Shown in pieces: positions 5,701 to 53,778 of a DNA stretch of 64,000 bases. The number at the start of each line of letters is the position of its first letter. Positions within the stretch are counted from its first letter, which is position 1. Location: positions 40,546,888 through 40,610,887 of the forward strand of contig CM046856.1 of the NCBI GenBank assembly GCA_025617745.1. The letters are read 5' to 3'. A program made the translations under genes and the position numbers. The notes beneath the pieces are model-generated. The model saw only the letters and a program-made list of their open reading frames with translations, was not told where the DNA came from and did not search any database. This stretch comes from Heliocidaris erythrogramma (lineage: Eukaryota > Echinodermata > Echinoidea > Camarodonta > Echinometridae).

Positions 5701-6012
5701 CTTAAAGTAGATATTCAAAGAAAATCACAAATATGGCAATTAATGTATCACTAGAAACTGGGAAGCTTACAGATGGCAATCGTAAGTTTTATGTCAACTG
5801 CGTATCTGATGATTATAAAAACAACACAAATAAAAGCTCTTCTCAGCATCTGGAATATCCGAGGATTCGCCAGAAATATAGCGATGTTTTGATGTCGTCA
5901 CACTCGGGATCGATCCTGCTTAAGCAGACGACGTCCTATAATGAATGAACGTAATTGCAATGGAATTATTTATCAAATTATAAAGAGTTTGGTGTATTTA
6001 AACATGACCTTA
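5700..6012. repeat. Repeat X, left part (interrupted by the Ty3 element)
   Basis: This matches 53140-53455 almost base for base, including the segment from AAGAAAATCACAAATATGGC through the CTTAAGCAG palindrome region. The copy is interrupted at 6012 by the Ty3-type element and resumes at 11179 with a duplicated 20-bp target. Unlike the 53-kb copy it has only one arm and no inverted second arm. Confidence 0.85.
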
Positions 6013-6105
6013 GATAAGAACGTGGTCTCTTTGTGCATGCTCAGATCATATGACAATGATCACGGTCTGCAATGAAATAAAAAGATGAACATGTATTAAG
6101 TATCT
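6013..6105 (-). repeat. 3' LTR of the Ty3-type element
   Basis: A 93-bp direct repeat of 11086-11178 with one difference (C at about 6039 against T). The termini are AGATA...TATCT-like rather than the usual TG...CA. Confidence 0.88.
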
Positions 6106-6309
6106 TCTATCTCCCCCCAAGTCGTTGATATCTGTCCTCTCAAGAAATCACGACTGAAACTTTCTAACAAAATCATGCGTGAACATCAAATGTGATCTGA
6201 ACTAACAACAAGAACACGAAAATGTAAAACAAGAAACGTTCAAAGCGTCCATATCGCGGGTCCAGATAAAGTGTCCATATTGTAAAATGTCCTAGTTCAA
6301 GTGTTTATA

Positions 6310-9300
6310 TCACATATGGTAATCAGTGTGCCAAGCAGGCTTGCCGGTACGGCGGGTGGACCTTCTGGGTGCCACAGCAGGGACGGCATCTGGTGTGGTG
6401 GCAAGTTCAGGAGCAGTGGATTGGGGAAGAGATGAGGCAGGCGTCGCAGTTGCAGGAGTCTCGACGGATGAGGGCACATCCATCGGTGGGGGTGGTGTGG
6501 GTTGTCGAGTGTCGGCTGCCAAGGAAGGTGGCTCCGTCGACGGCGCTGGTTGCACGGGCGCCGTGTCGGGTGAGATGTATGGCTGTTGGACACACTGACG
6601 CTGAGGTCGGTGATGCAGGCGCATGTCGTCAGCGATCGTCAACCGAGGTGTCGGTGGATGGACGGGGATGTACTTCCTCAGGAATTTCCTATTGCGTAGG
6701 GTAACCCGGCCGGAGCCATCGACTCTTACAACATACTGGTCAAACTGGCGGACCTCGACTATGATGCCAGTGCTGTCCCACTTGAGGGGGTGAGGCCCTG
6801 TCTGATTCTGTATGCGGACACTGTCGCCAACGGTAAGGGGCGGCAGGCGTTTAGCATGTTCCGACCAGCGTTCAGCACCTCTCATGTGGCGGTTACGGAG
6901 TGCCGCTTCACGTGCCACCAGAGTCTCTCGCCATGTGTCATGTGGCTTGTATTTGCCCAGTGCTATGGGAATGAAGTCTCGAATTGGTCGTCCAAACACA
7001 CACATTGCAGGAGAGAGTTTGGTATCTCGATCTGGCGTGTTCCTATACTGAAGCATAGCCCGTTGAAATGCATCAGTGTCGAGGGCCCCTGTAGAGCTGG
7101 TGTTGTCCATGATAAGACGTTTAACTGTTTTGACACCAACTTCGGCACGACAGTTGCTGTGGGGAAAGGCGACAGAGGAAAGTCTGTGGTGTATGCCCCA
7201 ATTCTTGAGAAAGTGTCGCGTCACTACGGCTGTGAATTCAGGACCGCCATCTGAAGCCAACTCATCAGGGATGCCAAAGGTGACAAAGATGCGTCGGAGA
7301 CAACTGACGAGGCCATCAGCACCATTGGCAGACTTCTCTACGATAGGCCAATTGGAGTACCTGTCGACCACAACAAGGTAGTTGCAGCCTTTGTAGTGGA
7401 AGTAGTCCGCGCAAACACACTGAAAAGGATAGGCGGGAGATGTCAAGGGCATAGGTGGTGCACTTGGGTTGGAGGGTGCTATCCGATTACAATGGTTGCA
7501 TCTTGCACGCAGGGCTGTGATGGCAGGAGTGATACCAGGCCAAAAGATGGACGCTTCAGCTCTCGCAGTCATGGACGTGACCCCTTGATGGGCCGCATGT
7601 AAATGAGCCAGTACCTCATCCCTGAGAGAGGGTGGAATGATGATGCGATCCCTGTACAGCACCACTCCATCAACGGTGTGGAGGTCATTGCGGAACTGGA
7701 AGTATTCACGTAGTGGCCCTGGTAGTTCGTGGCGAAACTCAGGCAATCCAGACTCCACAAGTTCAACGAGACACTGCATGTTCTCATCACTCGCTGTGGC
7801 GGTGCGGACTCTGTCCCATGTGACTGATTTCAGGCAGAGTCCATCCAAAGAAGACGTGGCAGAGGATAGGACACATTGCTCAAAGGTGCCGACATGTGAT
7901 GCTGTTGTGCGCAAGCCAGCCATGAGGGTTGGGGAGTGTGTCAGTGCGTTAGGCATGGAGTCAACGGTCGCAAGATCATCTGGGAGGACGAGCTTTTCTG
8001 GTTCACCAGTCGGGTGACGCGAAATGCAATCAGTAGCTCGATGTCTGATGCCTGGAACATGTACCATCCGGAACCTATATCGCAGTGATTTCTCCTTCAA
8101 GTTCCTCAGGCGGGGGTTGGGGATGTCTTCTAGGGATCGGTCAGCGAAGATCTTCAAGAGGGGCTTGTGGTCAACAGCGATTATGAGGTCCTTGCATCCC
8201 AGTACGAAGTATCTGGCTTTGTCTAATGCATCAACGACTGCAAGGGCCTCCCCCTCCACAGGGGCATAGCGTGATTCTGCAGGGTGTGTGAATCTGCTAC
8301 CAACGAGCGTAATCTTCCATCCTGTGGTACAACAGAACGGTTCGGTGTGGGTGCAAGCACAGTGTTTCTGAAGGAGCCAGAAGCCAATGCCATTCTTGGA
8401 CCAATCTGTCGCCAGGCACGTGGGCTTGCTTGAGTCAAAGATTTGGACGCCCTCTTCGATCTCACCGGCTATAACTGCTTTGGATTCGTCAAATGCACTC
8501 TGGAGGGTCTCATCCCATGTGAAAGGTGTGCTGGGTTTCAGGAGCTGACGAAATGGGAGCATCTTGTCAGCCATGCTGAAGGCGTATGACACTTGGTTGA
8601 CAAGCCCAAACCAGGAGCGTACATCTGTGATGGTCTTGGGTGTCGGGAAGTCCAGAATCGCCTGTAGGTATTTCTGGCATGGGCGAACACTGTCAGAAGT
8701 TATCTCAAAGCCAGCAAATTCCACAACATCAGCACCGAATACGAATTTGTCAGGGTTGAGGGTGACCCCATGCCGGCCACAAGTATCAAGCCAGTTGACG
8801 GCCTGGAAGAAGCTGTCTTCCAGTGTGTCTGCCCAAAGGAGGACGTCATCCACGCATTTTGTCTTGTTTGGGATGTCTGACACGATCTCGTCATAACGCC
8901 TTGTGTACCCGTCACCTGAGGCAATGTATCCTTGTGGGGCCGTTTTGTAGCGGTATCTACCCCAAGGTGTAATGAATGTGGTCAAATGACGGTCCTCTTT
9001 GCAGATGGGCACACTGTGATAACCATTCCATGCATCAAAGACTGTCTTCTTCTGTCCATGGGGGACTGACCGAGCTTGGTGGAAGGGCGATGGCGTATGA
9101 TGTGTTTCCCGTGTGGCGTGGGCATTCAGGGCTTGGAAGTCAACAGTTCGCCGTGGGTTGCCGTTTTTCTTTGCACAAACGACCATCCTGTGGCACCAGG
9201 TAACAGGCTCACCAATCGGGACTGGTTCTATTACCCCTAGCTGTACATCATGATCTAATCCGGCTTTTACGGCATCCCGCCAGTGGAGAGGAACAGGTAC

Positions 9301-11064
9301 TGGCGTGTGATGCACAACTGGTTCAGCGTCAGGGTCCACCATCAGCTTGATAGGAGGGCTGTCCATGAGGGGCATGGGCTGGTGCTCACATGTGTTGAAT
9401 GTGCTTGATTTGTAATAGTCCAAGAGGTATTGCTGCAGCCTTGAACGATTCGCTTCAGTTGCAGAAAATGGCAAGTCCTTGGGAGGTGGTGGAGGATGCT
9501 GACGCTGTGGACAGTCACAAGCCTTCTCAGAGGTCTCCTGCAGGGCAGCTGCTGTGTCCGGTTGGCGTGTTGCACCCAACATAGGGAAGCTGTCTGGGAT
9601 GATCCCAAGGTCAATACAGGCCTCCTTGCTAAGGAAGAATTTTTCAGATCTGTCGGTAACGTAGGTCATCTGCCTGGTCTCAACAACTCGACCCTGTGCA
9701 TCTTTGCCTGAAATGCGAAGTATAGTGGCCCCAAGAATTCTAATTCCTCCTTTGGTGGCAGTGTGCATTCTCATGGTGACCGGGATGAGGTCCGTTTGAT
9801 GCAAACCGAGGTGGCGAATGACCTTTATTCCCACAAGGCAGCTTTGGCACCCAGTGTCTGCCATGGCAGGGACAGAGCGAGTTACTGTGGTGTAAGGTAG
9901 GCTGTAACCGAGTGCCTTGTAGTCATCAGGCACGATTTTGATGTTCAAATCAACGAAGGGTTGAGAAGCTGACCTTTTTTTCAGCCATGTTTTGGACAGG
10001 TTGTCGTATACATGATGGTCAATTGGGATGGGTAGGCCACCATGAAGTCGTTCCACATCGTGGATGGTGCATAAGGCATCAAAAATGGCACCTTCATCGT
10101 CGTCTTTAGCACTGGGTCTGGAGTGTTTGGGCTTGTCTTTTCCGCGGCATACGGCTTCCATGTGGTGATATTTATCACAGTGTCCACACTTGTGGCCATA
10201 TGCTGGGCACTGGGCTTTGCGGATTCTGGCTGGGGCAGTCTTACCATGGCCCTTCTTGCCGCAGTACGTGCACAGGTCCTGTTTCTCTTTCAGGTTTGTC
10301 TGCTTGGCTTTCCTGTACATGCTGCTCGTGGCATCCACAGACTGCGAATCGAGGAGTGAGGATGCTGAACGTTTGCCAGCCTCTTTGGCTTCAATGAACT
10401 GGAAGACCTCCTCAAGGGTCATGTTCTGGTTCTTGTAACCAAGGAGATCGAGTTGGATTTCAGGGTCAGCGATACCTCGAGTGAGCACATCTCGCATCAT
10501 GGCGTCGGTGTAGTTGACATCAGCGTTGCAGCCAGGACATTTCATGAGGAATTTGCATATGTCTGCCTGACCACGTAGGCGAGCCCCAAAGCTGCGTACC
10601 GTTTCGTCCCGATCCTGACGCATATTGTGTAGTGTGACCCTGGCAACCATTGTATTCTCCTCACGCACTGCAAGTTTTTTGATGGCTGCTAGTACCTCAT
10701 CTTCAGATTTGTTTGTGAGGCTACCACCAGCCGACCGTGTGAGGTCCTTTCGTAAGGGCTCATCGCAACATTCCAGTAGTTGTACAACTCTGTCTTTGCC
10801 CGATACCTTTGTGGCTTCGACGTAGTCTGACCATCTCGACTTGAAGTAGGCCCATTCCTCACTGGACCCAGCAGCAGTAATTGTAGGACGTTTGACCTTT
10901 TCAACCTTGGCAACTTGTCCAGAGGTGTGTATTGCGCTGTGGGCGGTGATGAGTGCAGCTACAATAGCAGCATCATGGTCAGGAGTGGCGTAGTGACAAC
11001 CAGGGATGGGGCAGGATACGACAGGCATTGTCAGTTTTTCAATGTGGCTCAGGCGTTGATCCAA
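6310..11064 (-). CDS. Ty3-type Gag-Pol polyprotein
   Basis: One open frame; the first ATG is at 11028 (the frame is open a little further, to a TTG at 11064). Residues numbered from 11064: a C2H2-like finger [15 protein letters not shown] (18-46), gag, paired zinc knuckles (265-306), aspartic protease ADTGCQSC (402-409), RT (about 605-800) with [11 protein letters not shown] and the catalytic box CVDDVLLW (737-744), and RNase H with [18 protein letters not shown] and VDHKP (887-967). The integrase follows: an HHCC finger (1154-1192), then catalytic D, D and E at about 1219, 1272 and 1309, and a GPY/F-like module around 1400-1470. All expected domains are present in the Ty3 order with no stop, so activity is plausible. 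The RT box has CVDD instead of the common Y-x-DD; I recall similar boxes in invertebrate K02A2.6-like relatives. Confidence 0.93.
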
Positions 11065-11073
11065 TATCGTTGC

Positions 11074-11084
11074 ACCGTGATCAT
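11074..11084 (-). promoter_or_regulatory. Putative self-primer binding site
   Basis: Directly inside the 5' LTR the sense strand reads ATGATCACGGT. This is the exact complement of ACCGTGATCAT within the LTR (11129-11139). In Tf1-type retrotransposons the first 11 nt of the RNA fold back on the primer site and are cleaved to prime minus-strand synthesis. The position and the 11-nt length fit that model. No TGG-initial tRNA-complementary site fits instead. Confidence 0.6.
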
Positions 11085-11085
11085 A

Positions 11086-11178
11086 GATAAGAACGTGGTC
11101 TCTTTGTGCATGTTCAGATCATATGACAATGATCACGGTCTGCAATGAAATAAAAAGATGAACATGTATTAAGTATCT
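11086..11178 (-). repeat. 5' LTR of the Ty3-type element
   Basis: The 93-bp 5' LTR. If the self-priming reading is right, the transcript starts at 11139 (sense ACCGTGATCAT), which makes U3 only about 39 nt. A T-rich TTTTTATTT stretch lies roughly 12-22 nt upstream of that point. Confidence 0.85.
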
Positions 11179-11312
11179 TGTATTTAAACATGACCTTATT
11201 TAACACCATTGTAAAGGGAAAGTGGAACTGATTCTGATAGCTATAACCGTTTGATTGTAAATACACAGGAGAAGGGTCAATGATCAATGAAATAAACCCC
11301 ACTTTCAAATTG
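11179..11312. repeat. Repeat X, right part
   Basis: Continuation of repeat X after the Ty3 insertion; it matches 53437-53558 and ends at AATAAACCC. In the 53-kb copy an inverted second arm follows at this point. Here the sequence changes to unrelated DNA leading into a THAP-domain fragment. Confidence 0.85.
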
Positions 11313-18399: not shown

Positions 18400-19314
18400 T
18401 TACAAAGAAGACACAGGGGCCTTCAAGGTGGCTGACGCAAAAATAGCCTCACCTGCAGGGACATCCCTAAGGTAGCAAGAAATGAAGGAATTGGGCGAAC
18501 GCCAATAAGCAGCCTTCAAAATATCATCAAGCGCCACACCTTGAAACAGAGCCCAGGAAGTGCAGACACTACGAGTGTCATGAGCATGAGGCTTACTGTC
18601 AGATACAAGAGCCTCTGTGCCAGCAGCCCTAATAGCCTCGACGATCCATCTAGAAATGGAATCAAAAGAAGCAGGAGAAAAAGGCTCTCGAGTGATCAGG
18701 AACAACTGATCATCCTTACGATAAGACTTAGTCCTATCAATATACCATTTGAGAGCTGTAACAGGACACCAAACTTTGTCCTCGCGCACTGACGAAAAAA
18801 ATCCAGCAAGCGGACAAAGAAAAATCTCTACAGGGCCAGAGGAAGCCGTTTGATTCTTGACAATGAAAGAAGCCTTAGGAATCAATCTAACACCTTTTCT
18901 CTCCCAGCGAACATGACCAGGAGTAAGACAGAGGGCATGAAGAGTACTGCGCCTCTGCCCAGAGGCAATGGCTACCAAAAAGAGCGTCCTAACCGTAAGA
19001 TGGTGAAGTGAAGCTTCACCTAACGGCTCAAAAGGAGACTTCGCCAGGGCTTCTAAGACCTTAGGCAGGCTCCAAGACGGGACTAACTTAGAACGTGGAG
19101 GACGTTTCAGAAAGAACGACCGAATCAAACCACTCAACAGCAGGGAATTAGAAATCCCCAAACCATCTGAGAAGCCCGAGTGAATGGCCCCGATCGCCGA
19201 TCGGTAGCCTCGGATAGTAGAGACGGATCTCCCTTTGTCAAATAACGAGATTAGAAAATCCGCAACTGAACCAATAGGAGCCTTAGACCGGGTTTGATTT
19301 CGCTCTTTACACAT
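18400..19314 (-). CDS. DIRS C tyrosine recombinase
   Basis: An open frame of 304 codons. It is a DIRS-type tyrosine recombinase, the enzyme that inserts the circular DNA copy into the genome. An N-terminal core-binding part (GRSVSTIRGYRSAIGAIHSG, about 28-48) leads to the catalytic domain. The active-site residues can all be placed: R in GQRRSTL (about 122), H-x-x-R in HAHDTRS (about 246-249), and a tyrosine in SFISCYLRDV (about 282). The length is a little short for a full DIRS recombinase, and the true N-terminus may overlap the RT frame upstream. It is the only DIRS protein in the window with no break. Confidence 0.9.
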   Translation of the reverse strand: MCKERNQTRSKAPIGSVADFLISLFDKGRSVSTIRGYRSAIGAIHSGFSDGLGISNSLLLSGLIRSFFLKRPPRSKLVPSWSLPKVLEALAKSPFEPLGEASLHHLTVRTLFLVAIASGQRRSTLHALCLTPGHVRWERKGVRLIPKASFIVKNQTASSGPVEIFLCPLAGFFSSVREDKVWCPVTALKWYIDRTKSYRKDDQLFLITREPFSPASFDSISRWIVEAIRAAGTEALVSDSKPHAHDTRSVCTSWALFQGVALDDILKAAYWRSPNSFISCYLRDVPAGEAIFASATLKAPVSSL

Positions 19315-19377
19315 AAAGGAAAAAGACCGAAAGACGGGAATTATAAATTTCCCCAGTAGAAACTCTACGACTAGACA

Positions 19378-21483
19378 TTAAAAAGTCCGCAGCTCTATCA
19401 GAGAGAGACCCGACTGTCTTGCAGATTCCCCGACAGGGGCCAAGCAGTCAAATGAAGGGACTCCGGACTGTGGTGAAGAATCCCCGAGAGGGGATGCAAC
19501 ACCAGATCCGGAAGAACGAAACGGTTGAGCCGCCAGAAGGCTCATTAGCTCCGGAAACCAACTCCTCCTGGGCCAAAAGGGAGCTATCACAAGCACCCGA
19601 GCCTGATCTTCCCTGATCTTCCGCAAAACTCGCGGCATCAGCTGGAAGGAAGGAGCCCAAGCTACCCGATCGCGAGCACGGGAGCAATATTTCGGAAGTT
19701 GGTGGTTTAGAACCGATGCAAAAAGATCCACTTCCAGTGGACCCAGGCAACTGCGAATGCGGCAAAAGACCTCTGGATGGAGCATCCATTCTGATGGAAG
19801 ACACCTGCCCCGAGACAGAAAATCCGCAATGAGGTTTTCCTGACCAGGGATGAAAGAGGCCACGGGTGTGATCGCCATGCGACGACACCACCTCCACAGC
19901 TGTGCTGCTAAGGCATTCAGGGTAGCAGAACGAGTGCCTCCCTGCCGATTGATATAAGCCGCCACAGTGACATTGTCCGTGAGGATCAGAACTGAAAGAC
20001 TGAGAAGTCGACTTCTGAAATGAAGCAGGGTTAATAGAACTGCCATAAACTTCAGGACATTGATATGGGGAAGAGTCCCAAGATGAGACCAATCCCCCGC
20101 GACCGTGCTGCCATTGCAATGTCGTCCTCCCCACCCCAACCGAGAGGCATCCGTCGAAACCGAGATCGACGGAAGGGGGGTACGCAAGAAACTCCTCGTT
20201 CGTCCAACGAGAGAGAAGAGACTTGATTCCTATTGGTACTGGAATCCAGACCAACAGAGAATCCTTGCCCGGCTTGTAAAACTTGAGGAGATGTCTCTGA
20301 AACGGTCTCATAAAGAGCCGGCAATCCTCCAGAACATCGACTAGACTGGCTAGATACCCCAAGAACTGAAGCCACTGTCTGGCCTTGACCTTTCTGGCCA
20401 GCATGAGCTTGCGAGCTGCCGAGTCAATGGTGAGAATCCTGTCTCGACTGGGCCGAGCCAACTGATTCCGAATGTCTAACACAGCCCCCAGAAAAACTGG
20501 GCTGCGAGTAGGAACTAACTCTGACTTTTCCCAAATTATTAGGAAACCCAAGTCTTGAGTAAGATTGACGAGCAAACAAGTCTCGTCTGACAAACGATCG
20601 CGCGACTCCGCTAGGAGAAGCCAATCGTCCAGGTAGCAAAATAGCCGAAGGCTGCATCGCCTCAGTGAGGCTGCCAGCACGGCTACAACCTGAGTAAAAA
20701 CCTGAGGGGCTGGGCGCAGCCCGAAGGGAATGCGCGAAAGCGAAAAGTCTCTGAGAGGAAGGAAAACCCTAGAAAATCGCGCGAAGCGCGATGAATGGGA
20801 ATATGGAAATACGCATCTTTGAGATCTATCGAGACTGCGTAGTCCTTCCTCTTGATCAACGGGAGAATGGAGGCGAGAGTCTCCATCCGAAAATGTACTG
20901 AAGGAATGAATTTGTTTATTCTTTTCAAATTCAGTATCAAACAAAGTTTTCCCGAGCGCTTGGGAATAACAAAGATTGGAGAAAGGGAAAGAGACGGCCG
21001 GTCTCTTACCCTTTCTATAGCCCTCTTTTTCAACAGAGATTCGATCTCCGATGAGGCAAGAGAACGAGCAAGGGCAGACATGTGAGGTGACCAAGTTCTT
21101 ATAGCCCCTCCGGGGAGCTGGGCGGACAGATCTATGAAGAATCCGTCTCGCCCGACAAAGAGAACAAAAGCGTCCCCGGAGATGGCCTCCCAAGCGGGGA
21201 GAACGGAACAAAGACGGCCACCTACCAAGTCGCGGACAAAGGCCCACGTCGACTTAGAGTGAGCGTGAAACTGCGTAATCAAGACAGAGACCTGTTTTCG
21301 TGCATCGATTTCTCTTTGAAAAACCGTAGCAAATTGACCGCCAAAAAGCGAAGGACCCCGAGACGGAACATCCCGGAGAAGCGGTGCGATGTCCGACTCC
21401 TTAACCCCAAGGGCCGTAAGAACCAAGACTCTGCGACGGTACATGACCGAGGCAGCTACAGTGGAAAGCTGTGACCACTGCAA
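19378..21483 (-). pseudogene. DIRS C reverse transcriptase/RNase H (two frameshifts)
   Basis: RT-RNase H of DIRS C in three pieces. The first frame (21483 to about 20760) carries LFGGQFATVFQREI, FVIPKRSGKLCLILNLKRIN and SIDLKDAYFHIP. The second (about 20760 to 20200) carries PFGLRPAPQVF and the catalytic box FCYLDDWLLLAES. The third (20187-19378) is RNase H with VSTDASRLGWGG, LTDNVTVAAYINRQGG and a SFIPGQENLIADFLSRG block. A missing base near 20757 and an extra base near 20190 restore each other, so two single-base indels account for the breaks. Its ancestor was intact until recently. Confidence 0.9.
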
Positions 21484-37691: not shown

Positions 37692-38135
37692 GACATTTGC
37701 TCCGGCGGCAATTGCTCCTGCGACAAATGCTCCTAAAAATACGACAATTGCTCCGCGACAATTGCTCCGCGATAATTGCTCCTGCGACAATTGCTCCGTC
37801 GACATTTGCTCCTGCGATAATTGCTCCGGCGACATTTGCTCCTGCGACAATTGCTCCGACGACATTTGCTCCTGCGACAATTGCTCCGTCGACAATTGCT
37901 CCGTCGACAATTGCTCCGTCGACATTTGCTCCGTCGACATTTGCTCCGAACGAGCGACAATTGCTCCGCGACAACTGCTCCGTCGATAGAAATGCATATA
38001 TGCGACAATTGCTCTGTCGACATTTGCTCCGATCGAGCGACAACGGCTCCGTCGACAGAAATGCTTATATGCGACAATTGCTCCTGCGACAATTGCTCCG
38101 TCAACATTTGCTCCGATCGAGCGACAAATGCTCGT
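37692..38135. repeat. Left foldback arm (15-bp units)
   Basis: Alternating GACAATTGCTCC and GACATTTGCTCC units spaced by CTGC, GTC or CGC. The 15-bp period is a multiple of three, so every frame stays open. The open frames of 99-211 codons here encode RRSNC, EQLSQ or GAIVA repeats and are not taken as genes. Confidence 0.88.
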
Positions 38136-46003: not shown

Positions 46004-46414
46004 CTACCTCAACCGGCTTCTCTGAAACCACTGGAGATGCAACAACTTTCTCTCCAGCCAAGTCGTTACCCAACAAAAAGTCAACCCTTCCACGGGTAAT
46101 TCCGGTACGACATAATCCGGACCAATGCCTCGAACCAAAACTTTGGCATTCTCTGAACTCTCTGGTAGGAGAGTCAAATGCCCTGACATCATCAGGGACT
46201 GAGCAGCCCCTGTATCTCGAAGGATGACCACTGGCTTACCTACAGCACCAGTCGAACAGGGGGATACCTCACCATCATGCAAAAAGCTTCTAAAGCTCTC
46301 ATCAACCTTCTTGACCTTATCAGCAAATACTGGAGAAACACTCTCATCAACTTGGACTGATTCCAATTGGACAGACTCCTTGGGTGGAATACTTGATTGC
46401 TTGACTGAGCCCAA
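46004..46414 (-). pseudogene. Aspartic protease region
   Basis: PVVILRDTGAAQSLMMSGHL carries the D-T-G catalytic triplet of retroelement proteases. A frame break separates it from gag upstream, and RT is absent downstream. Confidence 0.8.
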
Positions 46415-47090
46415 CAGGACTTTGTCAAATGTCCTGGCTTATTACAATGAAAGAAGACTTTGGAACTTTGACCAACAAGTCTTTCATTTGATTTCGCGCC
46501 TCTATCTGCTTGAGACTTGTCAGTGTCATTCTCCTTGCTAGCATTTTTTCCCTCACCAAATTTCTTGTGGGATTCAAAGGACCCTTTACCCTTCTTATTC
46601 TGAAATTTCTTGAAAGGAAGCCTATCCCCACTACCTCTGTGTGTGACCTCAAATTCATCAGCTACCACAGCTGCCTTACTCAATTGAGTAATTCTTTGGT
46701 CATCTAGGTGAGACTTAACGCCAAAAGGAACACTCTTTTTGAATTCCTCTAGGAGGACAACTTCTCTCAGTTGGGTGAAATCTTCGTCAACTTTCAGTGA
46801 TCTGTACCACTTGTCAAACATTTCTTGTTCCCAAGCAAACTCAACATAGGTCTGGCCTGATTGTCTTTGCATATTCCTAAATTTACGTCTGTATGCTTCT
46901 GGGACCAACTCATATGCATTAAGAATAGTATTCTTCACTGTAGCATAGTCACATGATTGCTCTTCAGAGAGAGATGAGTAAACTTTTGCAGCCTTTCCAA
47001 AAAAAAAAAAAAAACGCTTTGAAGAAGCAGAGTCCAGTCTTTCTGAGGCCATTCCAACCTCTTGGCCACTTTTTCAAATGATACAAAATG
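46240..47090 (-). pseudogene. SCAN-like Gag, C-terminal part
   Basis: VSFEKVAKRLEWPQKDWTLL, then after a frame change GKAAKVYSSLSEEQSCDYAT, ILNAYELVPEAYRRKFRNM, TYVEFAWEQEMFDKWYRSLK and ITQLSKAAVVADEFEVTH. This is the SCAN-like capsid domain known from vertebrate SCAN proteins and their Gmr1-like retrotransposon relatives. The break is at an A-tract (46998-47014 on plus) that reads as poly-phenylalanine and replaces the residues normally between LLQ and GKAAK. A CCHC knuckle follows (HCNKPGHLTKSC) whose first cysteine is replaced by F. Confidence 0.87.
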
Positions 47091-50599: not shown

Positions 50600-51682
50600 T
50601 CAAACAAGACTCGATATAGTTGTTACACATAATCCGTCTCTGGGCTCTGTCCTTACCACCGTTCCAAATGAATTACAAAAAAATATTCTATTCAACTCTT
50701 TGAAAAAGGAATGAGGGATTATCAGTTGAAGTAATACCAATGCTTTTATAACACACACTTTGCCAATTAGAGAAAGATTTCTCATATGCCAACAACTTAT
50801 GGCTTGCTCAATTATTTTCAATTTAACTCTATAATTTAAGTCAAAGACCCGGTCAACGTTTAAGGAAAATGTGACTCCTGAACATTTAAATTCAGATTTA
50901 TTCCATGATACACAAATATTAGTGAAGGGGATATCCAGACATCCCTTTTTTGAGCCAATCCATATTGCTTCTGTTTTAATATTAAGTTTACACCCAGAAT
51001 AATGACTAAACTTGGATAAAGTTTCAAATAGCTGAGAAAAGGAGTTGTCAGACCCATCAATAAAACAATCATCATCTGCGCATAAAGATATTTTGGACTC
51101 TTCATCCACAAAAGGGATACCTCTTATTAGATCATTTTGACACACAGAAAGTGCCATAATCTCGATAAGAAAAAGAAAAAGGTAGGGGGAAATTGGACAA
51201 CCTTGGAAAATGCCTCTATTCATTGAAATGCGTTCAGATAAAAAAAAAACATTATTAATTACATAGCTCTGGCGAGCAGAATACAAAGTTTTGATGGAAT
51301 GAATAAATTTATGGCCAAAATTAAATTTTTCTAGGGTTTGAAATAAAAAATTATGGGAGACACTGTCAAATGCCTTCTCAATATCAAGCAAAATAACTGA
51401 ACCAGGAGTATCATTAGCCTCAGTATACTCTATAATATCTAAAATAAAACAGATATTATGACCAATATTTCTCCCTTGCATAAAACCAGATTGGTCCGCT
51501 TGAATAAGATAGTGAAGATAGTGTAGACAGCGTTTCAAACGGTTGGTGATGCATTTGGCTAGAATTTTATAGTCAGTAGTCAAAAGGGTAATTGGTCTGT
51601 AATTTTTAATGAACATACATGTAGGATCTTTATCTTTCTTGGGAAGAAGAGTTATTATACCGTTCCTTTGGGATGCCGACAT
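50600..51682 (-). pseudogene. LINE ORF2 reverse transcriptase
   Basis: RT of an L1/Tx1-like LINE: IITLLPKKDKDP, NYRPITLLTTDYKILAKCIT, QADQSGFMQGRNIGHNI, VILLDIEKAFDSVSHNFL, GIFQGCPISPYLFLFLIEI and the catalytic ISLCADDDCFIDG. All seven core RT blocks are recognisable. A frameshift at about 50685 moves the next residues (WNGGKDRAQRRIMC) to another frame, and upstream (51690-52046) the link to the endonuclease is also broken. A and D of the catalytic ADD box are intact. Confidence 0.9.
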
Positions 51683-53157: not shown

Positions 53158-53778
53158 CAAAGAAAATCACAAATATGGCAATTAATGTATCACTACAAAC
53201 TGGGAAGCTTACAGATGGCAATCGTATAAGTTTTATGTCAACTGCGTATCTGATGATTATAAAAAACAACATAAATAAAAGCTCTTCTAAGCATCTGGAA
53301 TATCCGAGGATTCGCCAGAAATATAGCGATGTTTTGATGTCGTCACACTAGGGATCGATCCTGCTTAAGCAGACGACGTCATATAATGAATGAACGTAAT
53401 TGCAATGCAATTATTTATCAAATTATAAAGAGTTTGGTGTATTTAAACATGACCTTATTTCACACCATTCTAAAAGGGAAAGTGAAACTGATTCTGATAA
53501 CTAACACCGTTTGATTGTAAATACACAGGAGAAGGGTCAATGATCAATGAAATAAACCCGTCGTCTGCTTAAGCAGGATCGATCCCTAGTGTGACGACAT
53601 CAAAACATCGCTATATTTCTGGCGAATCCTCGGATATTCCAGATGCTTAGAAGAGCTTTTATTTATGTTGTTTTTTATAATCATCAGATACGCAGTTGAC
53701 ATAAAACTTATACGATTGCCATCTGTAAGCTTCCCAGTTTGTAGTGATACATTAATTGCCATATTTGTGATTTTCTTG
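53158..53778. mobile_element. Repeat X with inverted second arm (foldback)
   Basis: Left arm 53158-53379 and right arm 53559-53778 are reverse complements, identical for ~215 bp. The ~180-bp spacer matches 5945-6012 plus 11199-11312. Only one arm exists in the copy at 5700-11312, so the second arm here is an inverted duplication or the complete form of the element. It splits the LINE endonuclease. Confidence 0.87.

Follow-up and report, generated by a model that had tools for sequence, protein, structure and literature searches.

A Ty3-type long terminal repeat (LTR) retrotransposon of the sea urchin Heliocidaris erythrogramma very probably uses its own RNA to prime minus-strand DNA synthesis, in the manner of Tf1. 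The element, a whole copy of the family here called F1, occupies positions 6011–11182 on the minus strand of a 64,000-nucleotide stretch (assembly GCA_025617745.1, contig CM046856.1, positions 40,546,888 to 40,610,887 of the forward strand; hereafter the window), its boundaries being taken from other copies. An earlier reading of these letters alone (the sequence-only reading) had proposed such priming from one complementary pair, and the proposal is supported here by pairing in 17 of 18 F1 copies and by compensating changes in four other families. Observed in the DNA were the placement of a primer site at the LTR edge, its exact complementarity to a segment of the LTR, covariation of the two across five families, two palindromic integrants, and YAG and CAT^TG borders that the families have in common. 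The evidence that we take as decisive, at the level of sequence, is that the best copies of four diverged families, although their letters differ, pair perfectly or near-perfectly at the LTR edge.

The predicted primer binding site ATGATCACGGT (minus strand, 11084–11074) abuts the 5′ LTR (minus strand, 11084–11182, 99 bp, ending TCTA) and is, at the positions originally claimed, the exact complement of LTR positions 44–54, the predicted self-primer ACCGTGATCAT (minus strand, 11139–11129). The last LTR base, A at 11084, doubles as the first base of the site, as is also the case in families F2, F3 and F5. In the window, the 11-mer was found only in the two LTRs (at 6066–6056 in the 3′ LTR), together with one complementary site. 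When the LTR was shuffled with its dinucleotides preserved, a full 11-nt complement arose in 8 of 100,000 trials, and in 2 of 20,000 in a second run. Upstream, the self-primer is adjoined by CTTTTTATTTCATTGCAG (minus strand, 11140–11157), a polypyrimidine stretch ending in YAG that presumably marks the boundary between U3 (unique 3′ region) and R (repeat region) and has a similar motif in most copies of F2–F5; just after the self-primer, on the same strand, lies a predicted RNase H cut, CAT^TG. This layout is common to the five families. The sequence-only reading had also described a tRNA-like TGG primer site as absent, which is correct for the LTR edge, but ATATTGGATC, about 20 nt into the element, does contain a TGG. 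A tRNA-type site, which that reading had named as evidence against self-priming if found in relatives, was not seen at the LTR edge anywhere in the lineage, the genome's own tRNAs not having been compared with the site.

The genome (1.06 Gb, 26 contigs) was searched with the LTR, and all 37 places matched were retrieved. F1 has at least about 20 near-identical copies, with a typical LTR of 99 bp, TAGA...TCTA. All 11 pairs are kept wherever both LTR and site could be read, except in L020, where the first site base is mutated; L025, with a rearranged LTR, and 3′-end loci, which have no site, were left out of this count. The LTR edge was located from the genome matches, 15 of 37 of which end at query base 62–63, base 62 being position 11084. 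Description of the element as intact and recent held up, as gag-pol is one open frame and the window LTRs differ at 2 positions, with 0–1 differences in ten other indel-free pairs; the pairs L024/L037 and L031/L044 were excluded because an indel in each makes ungapped comparison meaningless. Among 13 end-paired copies, a 5-bp target site duplication (TSD) was exact in 10 and had one mismatch in 2, while the window copy had none, being flanked by an 18-bp repeat.

Relatives were sought by protein searches of the genome. A reverse transcriptase (RT) search, in which 110 of 2975 candidates were scored and counts are lower bounds, gave at least 122 matches, comprising the family itself, decayed relatives (mostly 42–86% identity) and other Ty3 elements (about 29–34%); a search with the start of gag gave 124 matches, and a search for relatives in IMG/VR gave no match. 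Eighteen five-prime slices and 17 further loci (plus a 9-base leftover) were retrieved. Five slices reached the start of gag and were examined for a complement; of the others, 12 did not match gag and L089 did so only internally; a complement that was whole or departed only by G.U pairs was found in L080, L086 and L090, and one with one G.U in L093. A whole or G.U-only complement was likewise found in 4 of the 17 loci (L101, L103, L109, L110).

These relatives were sorted into four families. In F2 (RT 79–84% identical to that of the window element, in the cases in which both could be seen), ACTCTGTTCAT pairs with ATGAACAGAGT; the complement is perfect over 11 nt in 7 of 11 scored loci and reaches 14 nt in several copies (CAGACTCTGTTCAT / ATGAACAGAGTCTG). 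Left out of the F2 count were L100, L102, L105, L108 and L111, in which the site, primer or LTR is lost, and L150–L152, which have no site or a deleted primer. F3, represented by L090 (RT 67%), pairs ATTGTCGACAT with ATGTCGACAAT, and F4, represented by L110 (gag 65%), pairs ACCGTGTTCGT with ATGAACACGGT with one G.U, CAT being present in some other F4 LTRs; L106 and L107, with the site deleted, and L159 and L165, retrieved later and partly broken, were left out of the F4 count. F5 (RT 44% for the element of L116, gag 44–54%) has a complement of 22–23 nt, GGCTATAATCACTGTGTGATCAT / ATGATCACACAGTGATTATAGCC, with one mismatch in L156 and two in L155. The 3′ LTR partners of the single F2 and F3 elements were sought in 3′ slices, which yielded no convincing pair, and the LTR ends of these families were taken from genome-wide LTR matches.

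In these matches the LTR edge was again marked, with 20 of 41 F2 matches ending at 192–194 and 9 of 17 F3 matches at 253–255. F5 copies without a site have LTRs that end CATTTA and then run into flank, and the F4 edge was inferred from four ragged matches (ends 167–181; site start 170) together with an alignment. In F1–F3, 3′ and solo LTR matches stop at the first base of the primer site or next to it, which places the site at the LTR edge without recourse to the complementarity. In all five families the complement starts directly after, or 1–3 nt upstream of, a polypyrimidine-YAG junction, and its length by family runs from 11 to 22–23 nt. The junction is TTGCAG|A in 18 of 18 F1 copies and CTGCAG|A or a variant in 11 of 11 F2 copies. 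In F3, L142–L146 (5 of the 7 additional LTR copies) have (T/C)TACAG|A, L171 and L172 lack it, and L090 has TTACGG. F4 has TTGCAG|A in L110 and most copies, with ACAA in L162 and L163, and most F5 copies have A(T)ACAG|G or ATGCAG|G. At its other end the complement has CAT before TG, or CGT in L110. A plus strand that copied the RNA primer to its end would record that end, and with it the start of the RNA, in the site; the genomic RNA most likely starts at 11139, as the sequence-only reading had it, or within 1–2 nt, perhaps upstream at the A of CAG.

The polypyrimidine-YAG that precedes the self-primer in most copies of all five families resembles a 3′ splice site; it may serve as an initiator or as a genuine splice acceptor. 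Addition of a spliced leader ahead of the primer was considered and rejected as the principal explanation, since the families have no sequence in common after the primer site. The RNA 5′ end itself may be made or selected at this splice-acceptor-like sequence, not at a classical promoter start.

Covariation was scored with one row per family, using the best copy of each, the F5 row being L155 alone over the last 11 nt of its longer helix. All 55 of 55 cells are standard pairs (shuffled mean 77%), a figure that is partly due to selection because of these best-copy rows and the F5 row from a longer helix. In the same five-row helix, double-sided changes are present at 7 of 11 pairs (shuffled mean 2.6), and 0 of 500 shuffles equaled the pairing or the double-change count. 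When the partner was slid by 1–3 columns, pairing fell to 14–50%. Each primer mismatches another family's site at 1–6 of 11 positions and its own at 0 or 1 (in this comparison the F5 row combined LTR letters of L155 with site letters of L156). The number of shuffled LTRs that matched as well as the real one, per 20,000, was 2 for F1, 0 for F2, 1 for F3, 45 for F4 and 0 for F5, with one mismatch allowed for F4 and F5. The sequence-only reading had asked whether LTR and primer site co-vary among genomic relatives, and they do, with pairing kept. Loss of the complementarity in related copies, which it had counted as contrary to self-priming, is seen in decayed relatives with broken pairs or missing 5′ ends, but the best copies of the four diverged families keep the pairing.

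From these features we infer where the RNA begins and is cut, that it primes, and that the primer is copied. The genomic RNA would begin just after the LTR polypyrimidine-YAG (11139), and its first 11 nt would fold back onto the site adjoining U5 (unique 5′ region). The element's RNase H would cut the RNA after CAT, leaving a 3′ end that RT would extend into U5 and R. Later, the RNA primer would itself be copied by the plus strand, and the primer site of each new copy would in this way be written from the LTR. Such rewriting in each cycle is proposed as the reason why LTR and site stay matched while drifting.

Two F5 loci, L153 (about C9 43016734–43016929) and L154 (about C6 24216079–24216250), consist of U3-R-U5, the primer site and then U3 in reverse complement as far as the LTR terminus. 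Each has a deletion in one arm and a single 5-bp TSD (AAGTG and AGGTG, read by eye), and a search with the inverted junction gave no further palindromic copy among its 17 matches. Both look as though integrase had inserted a molecule bearing U3 at each end. This molecule could have arisen by copying of a U3-carrying RNA primer, or by the plus strand snapping back on its own LTR; extension of the helix would be needed either way. It is an evenly balanced question whether the palindromes come from DNA foldback during or after plus-strand synthesis, in which case no long RNA primer would be involved and they would report nothing on RNA priming. A plus-strand DNA ending in the primer site could fold onto its own LTR and copy U3, with an identical product, but foldback too would need the same helix to be formed and extended before integration, and both palindromic copies bear integrase-type 5-bp TSDs.

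The element could be a Tf1/sushi chromovirus that lacks its chromodomain and inherited self-priming from that group, a derivation that we regard as unlikely. In its favor, the available excerpts of PMC10085805 and PMC7175516 describe self-priming in Tf1/sushi elements (11 nt in Tf1) and place the group in vertebrates as well. The C-terminal chromodomain of that group is not seen here, however: in the last 283 residues of gag-pol no match to a chromodomain or any other Pfam family was found even at E 10. The LTRs likewise do not have TG...CA ends, those of F1 being TAGA...TCTA and those of the other families beginning TA and mostly ending TA. Among solved structures the nearest is Ty3, which is uninformative on Tf1/sushi membership.

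Nine other Ty3 loci of the genome (O1–O9) served as a comparison group. An LTR pair was found in 6 of the 9, O2 being cut by its slice, and in all six an LTR complement of at least 8 nt is absent from the edge. In O3–O7 the LTRs begin TG (4 of 5 end CA), are 137–191 bp long and have a TGGTGTC... tRNA-type site at the edge; the sequence there, TGGTGTCAGAAGTGG, presumably pairs with tRNA-Leu. O2 and O9 contain the motif TGGCGACGAGGAT, a primer site of neither kind was seen in O1 and O8, and O1, O2, O8 and O9 showed no complement of at least 10 nt within 200 bases. The F1 lineage resembles O3–O7 in its short LTRs, polypurine tract and related RT, but O3–O7 differ from it in their TG-starting LTRs, tRNA-type site and want of an LTR complement.

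Quite improbable is the explanation that the pair is a conserved leader hairpin serving packaging, translation or dimerization and that the primer is an unrecognized tRNA or tRNA fragment. The evidence for priming is sequence-based, and plant Ty1/copia elements that are primed by half-tRNAs are known (PMC6317226, in the part available). Against this, the site begins at the LTR edge, where a primer site must lie, in F1, F2 and F3, with the edge fixed by other matches; a tRNA-fragment primer would require five fragments for five families, each also matching its own LTR; ordinary TGG sites are present in 5 of the 9 sampled Ty3 loci of other families; and the palindromic copies require that a 3′ end was extended at the primer helix. 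A chance inverted repeat in a single young family is an exceedingly improbable source of the complementarity. In its favor, F1 by itself is young and near-identical with non-independent copies, but a perfect 11-nt complement has a chance of about 1 in 10,000 in each family (F4, with one mismatch, is weaker), and the recurrence of pairing in different letters in four other families refutes it.

Several observations weigh against self-priming and were set beside the evidence for it. All data come from one genome. F1 copies are young and partly non-independent (flanks are shared by L009/L010 and by L018/L019), and for this reason conservation within F1 alone is weak evidence. The complements of the relatives were found by searching for complements, so full pairing is partly selected; the LTR edge and the flanking motifs are the parts independent of that search. 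One of the five examined slices, L084, has neither an LTR nor such a complement. In the 17 loci, pairs are broken in 5 (L104, L112, L113, L114, L116; in L113 and L114 the LTR is, by eye, short of one primer base) and the site, primer or whole LTR is lost in 8 (L100, L102, L105–L108, L111, L115). F3 and F4 are each represented by one well-paired 5′ end, with partly broken pairs in the F4 loci L159 and L165, and in the F5 copies that have gag (L113, L114, L116) the complement is shorter or broken.

In single-sequence folds, the primer helix is part of the minimum-energy structure in 5 of 6 leaders, the exception being L086 (F2, started after its CAG). The F1 hairpin is the minimum-energy fold of its leader, with an energy that is ordinary relative to shuffles (z -1.2). 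The only leaders to beat all shuffles were L156 (F5, z -5.3) and L101 (F2, trimmed exactly to its helix, z -4.2); other folded leaders had z of -1.0 to -1.6. Of the three-duplex "pretzel" of the Tf1/sushi leader, the comparison here covered the primer helix. The evidence for the pair is placement and covariation, not folding energy.

A broader proposal is held tentatively, a shade short of our favoring it: that self-priming arose or long persisted in a non-chromovirus Ty3 lineage, with a primer defined as the stretch from YAG to CAT^TG and not as a fixed 11 nt, with a site rewritten in each cycle, and with failed cycles integrating as two-U3 palindromes. Five families in one genome amount to a natural mutagenesis, in which the paired letters are replaced while pairing persists, and complement length hints at the starting point of the primer. 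Should the lineage fall outside the chromoviruses, escape from tRNA dependence would have happened more than once among Ty3 elements. A general test for self-primed elements would follow, in which the primer site tracks the LTR and two-U3 foldback insertions are expected.

The remaining anatomy of the window element is that of Ty3/gypsy elements (Metaviridae). A single gag-pol open reading frame (ORF) of 1572 amino acids (minus strand, 6310–11028) has Pfam matches to RVT_1 (652–776), RNase H (865–965), H2C2 (1131–1185) and the core integrase rve (1201–1286), in the order RT, RNase H, integrase within one polyprotein, and a protease motif was read by eye. The polypurine tract GGGGGGAGA (minus strand, 6110–6118) adjoins the 3′ LTR (minus strand, 6011–6109, 99 bp, TAGA...TCTA), and the LTR pair and short target duplication also conform to Ty3/gypsy. 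The LTR length of 93 bp given by the sequence-only reading was wrong, both LTRs being 99 bp (5′, 11182–11084; 3′, 6109–6011). The 5′ LTR of the window copy begins TACA, in place of the TAGA of typical copies, inside an atypical 18-bp flank repeat, and its true start is hidden for this reason. The left copy of the repeat, AGGTCATGTTTAAATACA, is at 11179–11196 (minus strand), its last 4 bases replacing the LTR start, and the right copy is at 5993–6010 (minus strand). The repeat was rejected as the target duplication of the family, as other copies carry 5 bp and it is peculiar to the window copy. An insertion-free paralog of the target is present in the same window, at 53438–53455.

Elsewhere in the window, adjoining ORFs at 18400–21444 (minus strand) have weak, below-cutoff matches to Phage_integrase and RVT_1 and perhaps represent a tyrosine-recombinase (DIRS/Ngaro-like) retroelement. 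An ORF of 270 amino acids at 46240–47052 (minus strand) has a SCAN domain match (E 1.1e-8), and one at 50600–51682 (minus strand), about 1.8 kb from the target paralog, has a strong RT match (E 2.7e-28) and belongs to another retroelement. At 37740–37964, a 15-bp unit (CGACAATTGCTCCGT-like) is repeated about 15 times in an array that overlaps ORFs on both strands.

Self-priming has been placed in Tf1/sushi chromoviruses of fungi and vertebrates, with the rule for Tf1 that the first 11 RNA bases prime after a cut between bases 11 and 12 (PMC7175516 and PMC10085805, as excerpted). In the same partial view of the literature, it is assigned to most Tcn1-clade elements of non-seed plants, there is no evidence of it for SM-Tcn1 (PMC2864245), and it is predicted by complementarity for the plant TAR Ty1/copia elements (PMC6317226). 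The excerpts of the wider literature on known self-priming (PMC4600332, PMC5006619, PMC5445492, PMC8220671, PMC6934838, PMC3601003) belong to the same body of work, in which the experimental work-up is that of Tf1 and the assignment elsewhere is mostly sequence prediction. Among the literature matches listed, in a search that left most subscription papers outside, no report of self-priming in a non-chromovirus animal Ty3 lineage was found, judging by titles and excerpts. TG...CA ends are usual but not strictly defining for Ty3/gypsy, the Zam group also being without them (PMC3601003, in the part available).

Compared with these systems, the lineage is like Tf1 of Schizosaccharomyces pombe, as far as the excerpts describe it, in its single gag-pol ORF and its 11-nt complement at the LTR edge, and unlike it in having no chromodomain match, in LTRs that begin TA and in a complement that ranges from 11 to 22–23 nt among families. 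It resembles the vertebrate sushi elements (Butler et al., 2001, as cited in the available parts of PMC10085805 and PMC6317226) in being animal and Ty3-type with predicted self-priming, and differs from these chromoviruses in showing no chromodomain match. With the TAR lineage (PMC6317226, same excerpt) it would share predicted self-priming outside Tf1/sushi, TAR differing as Ty1/copia elements of plant hosts. Judged by its letters, the mechanism appears to work like that of Tf1, and this known kind of priming is well supported by comparison, in a lineage that shows no chromodomain match and has LTRs beginning TA.
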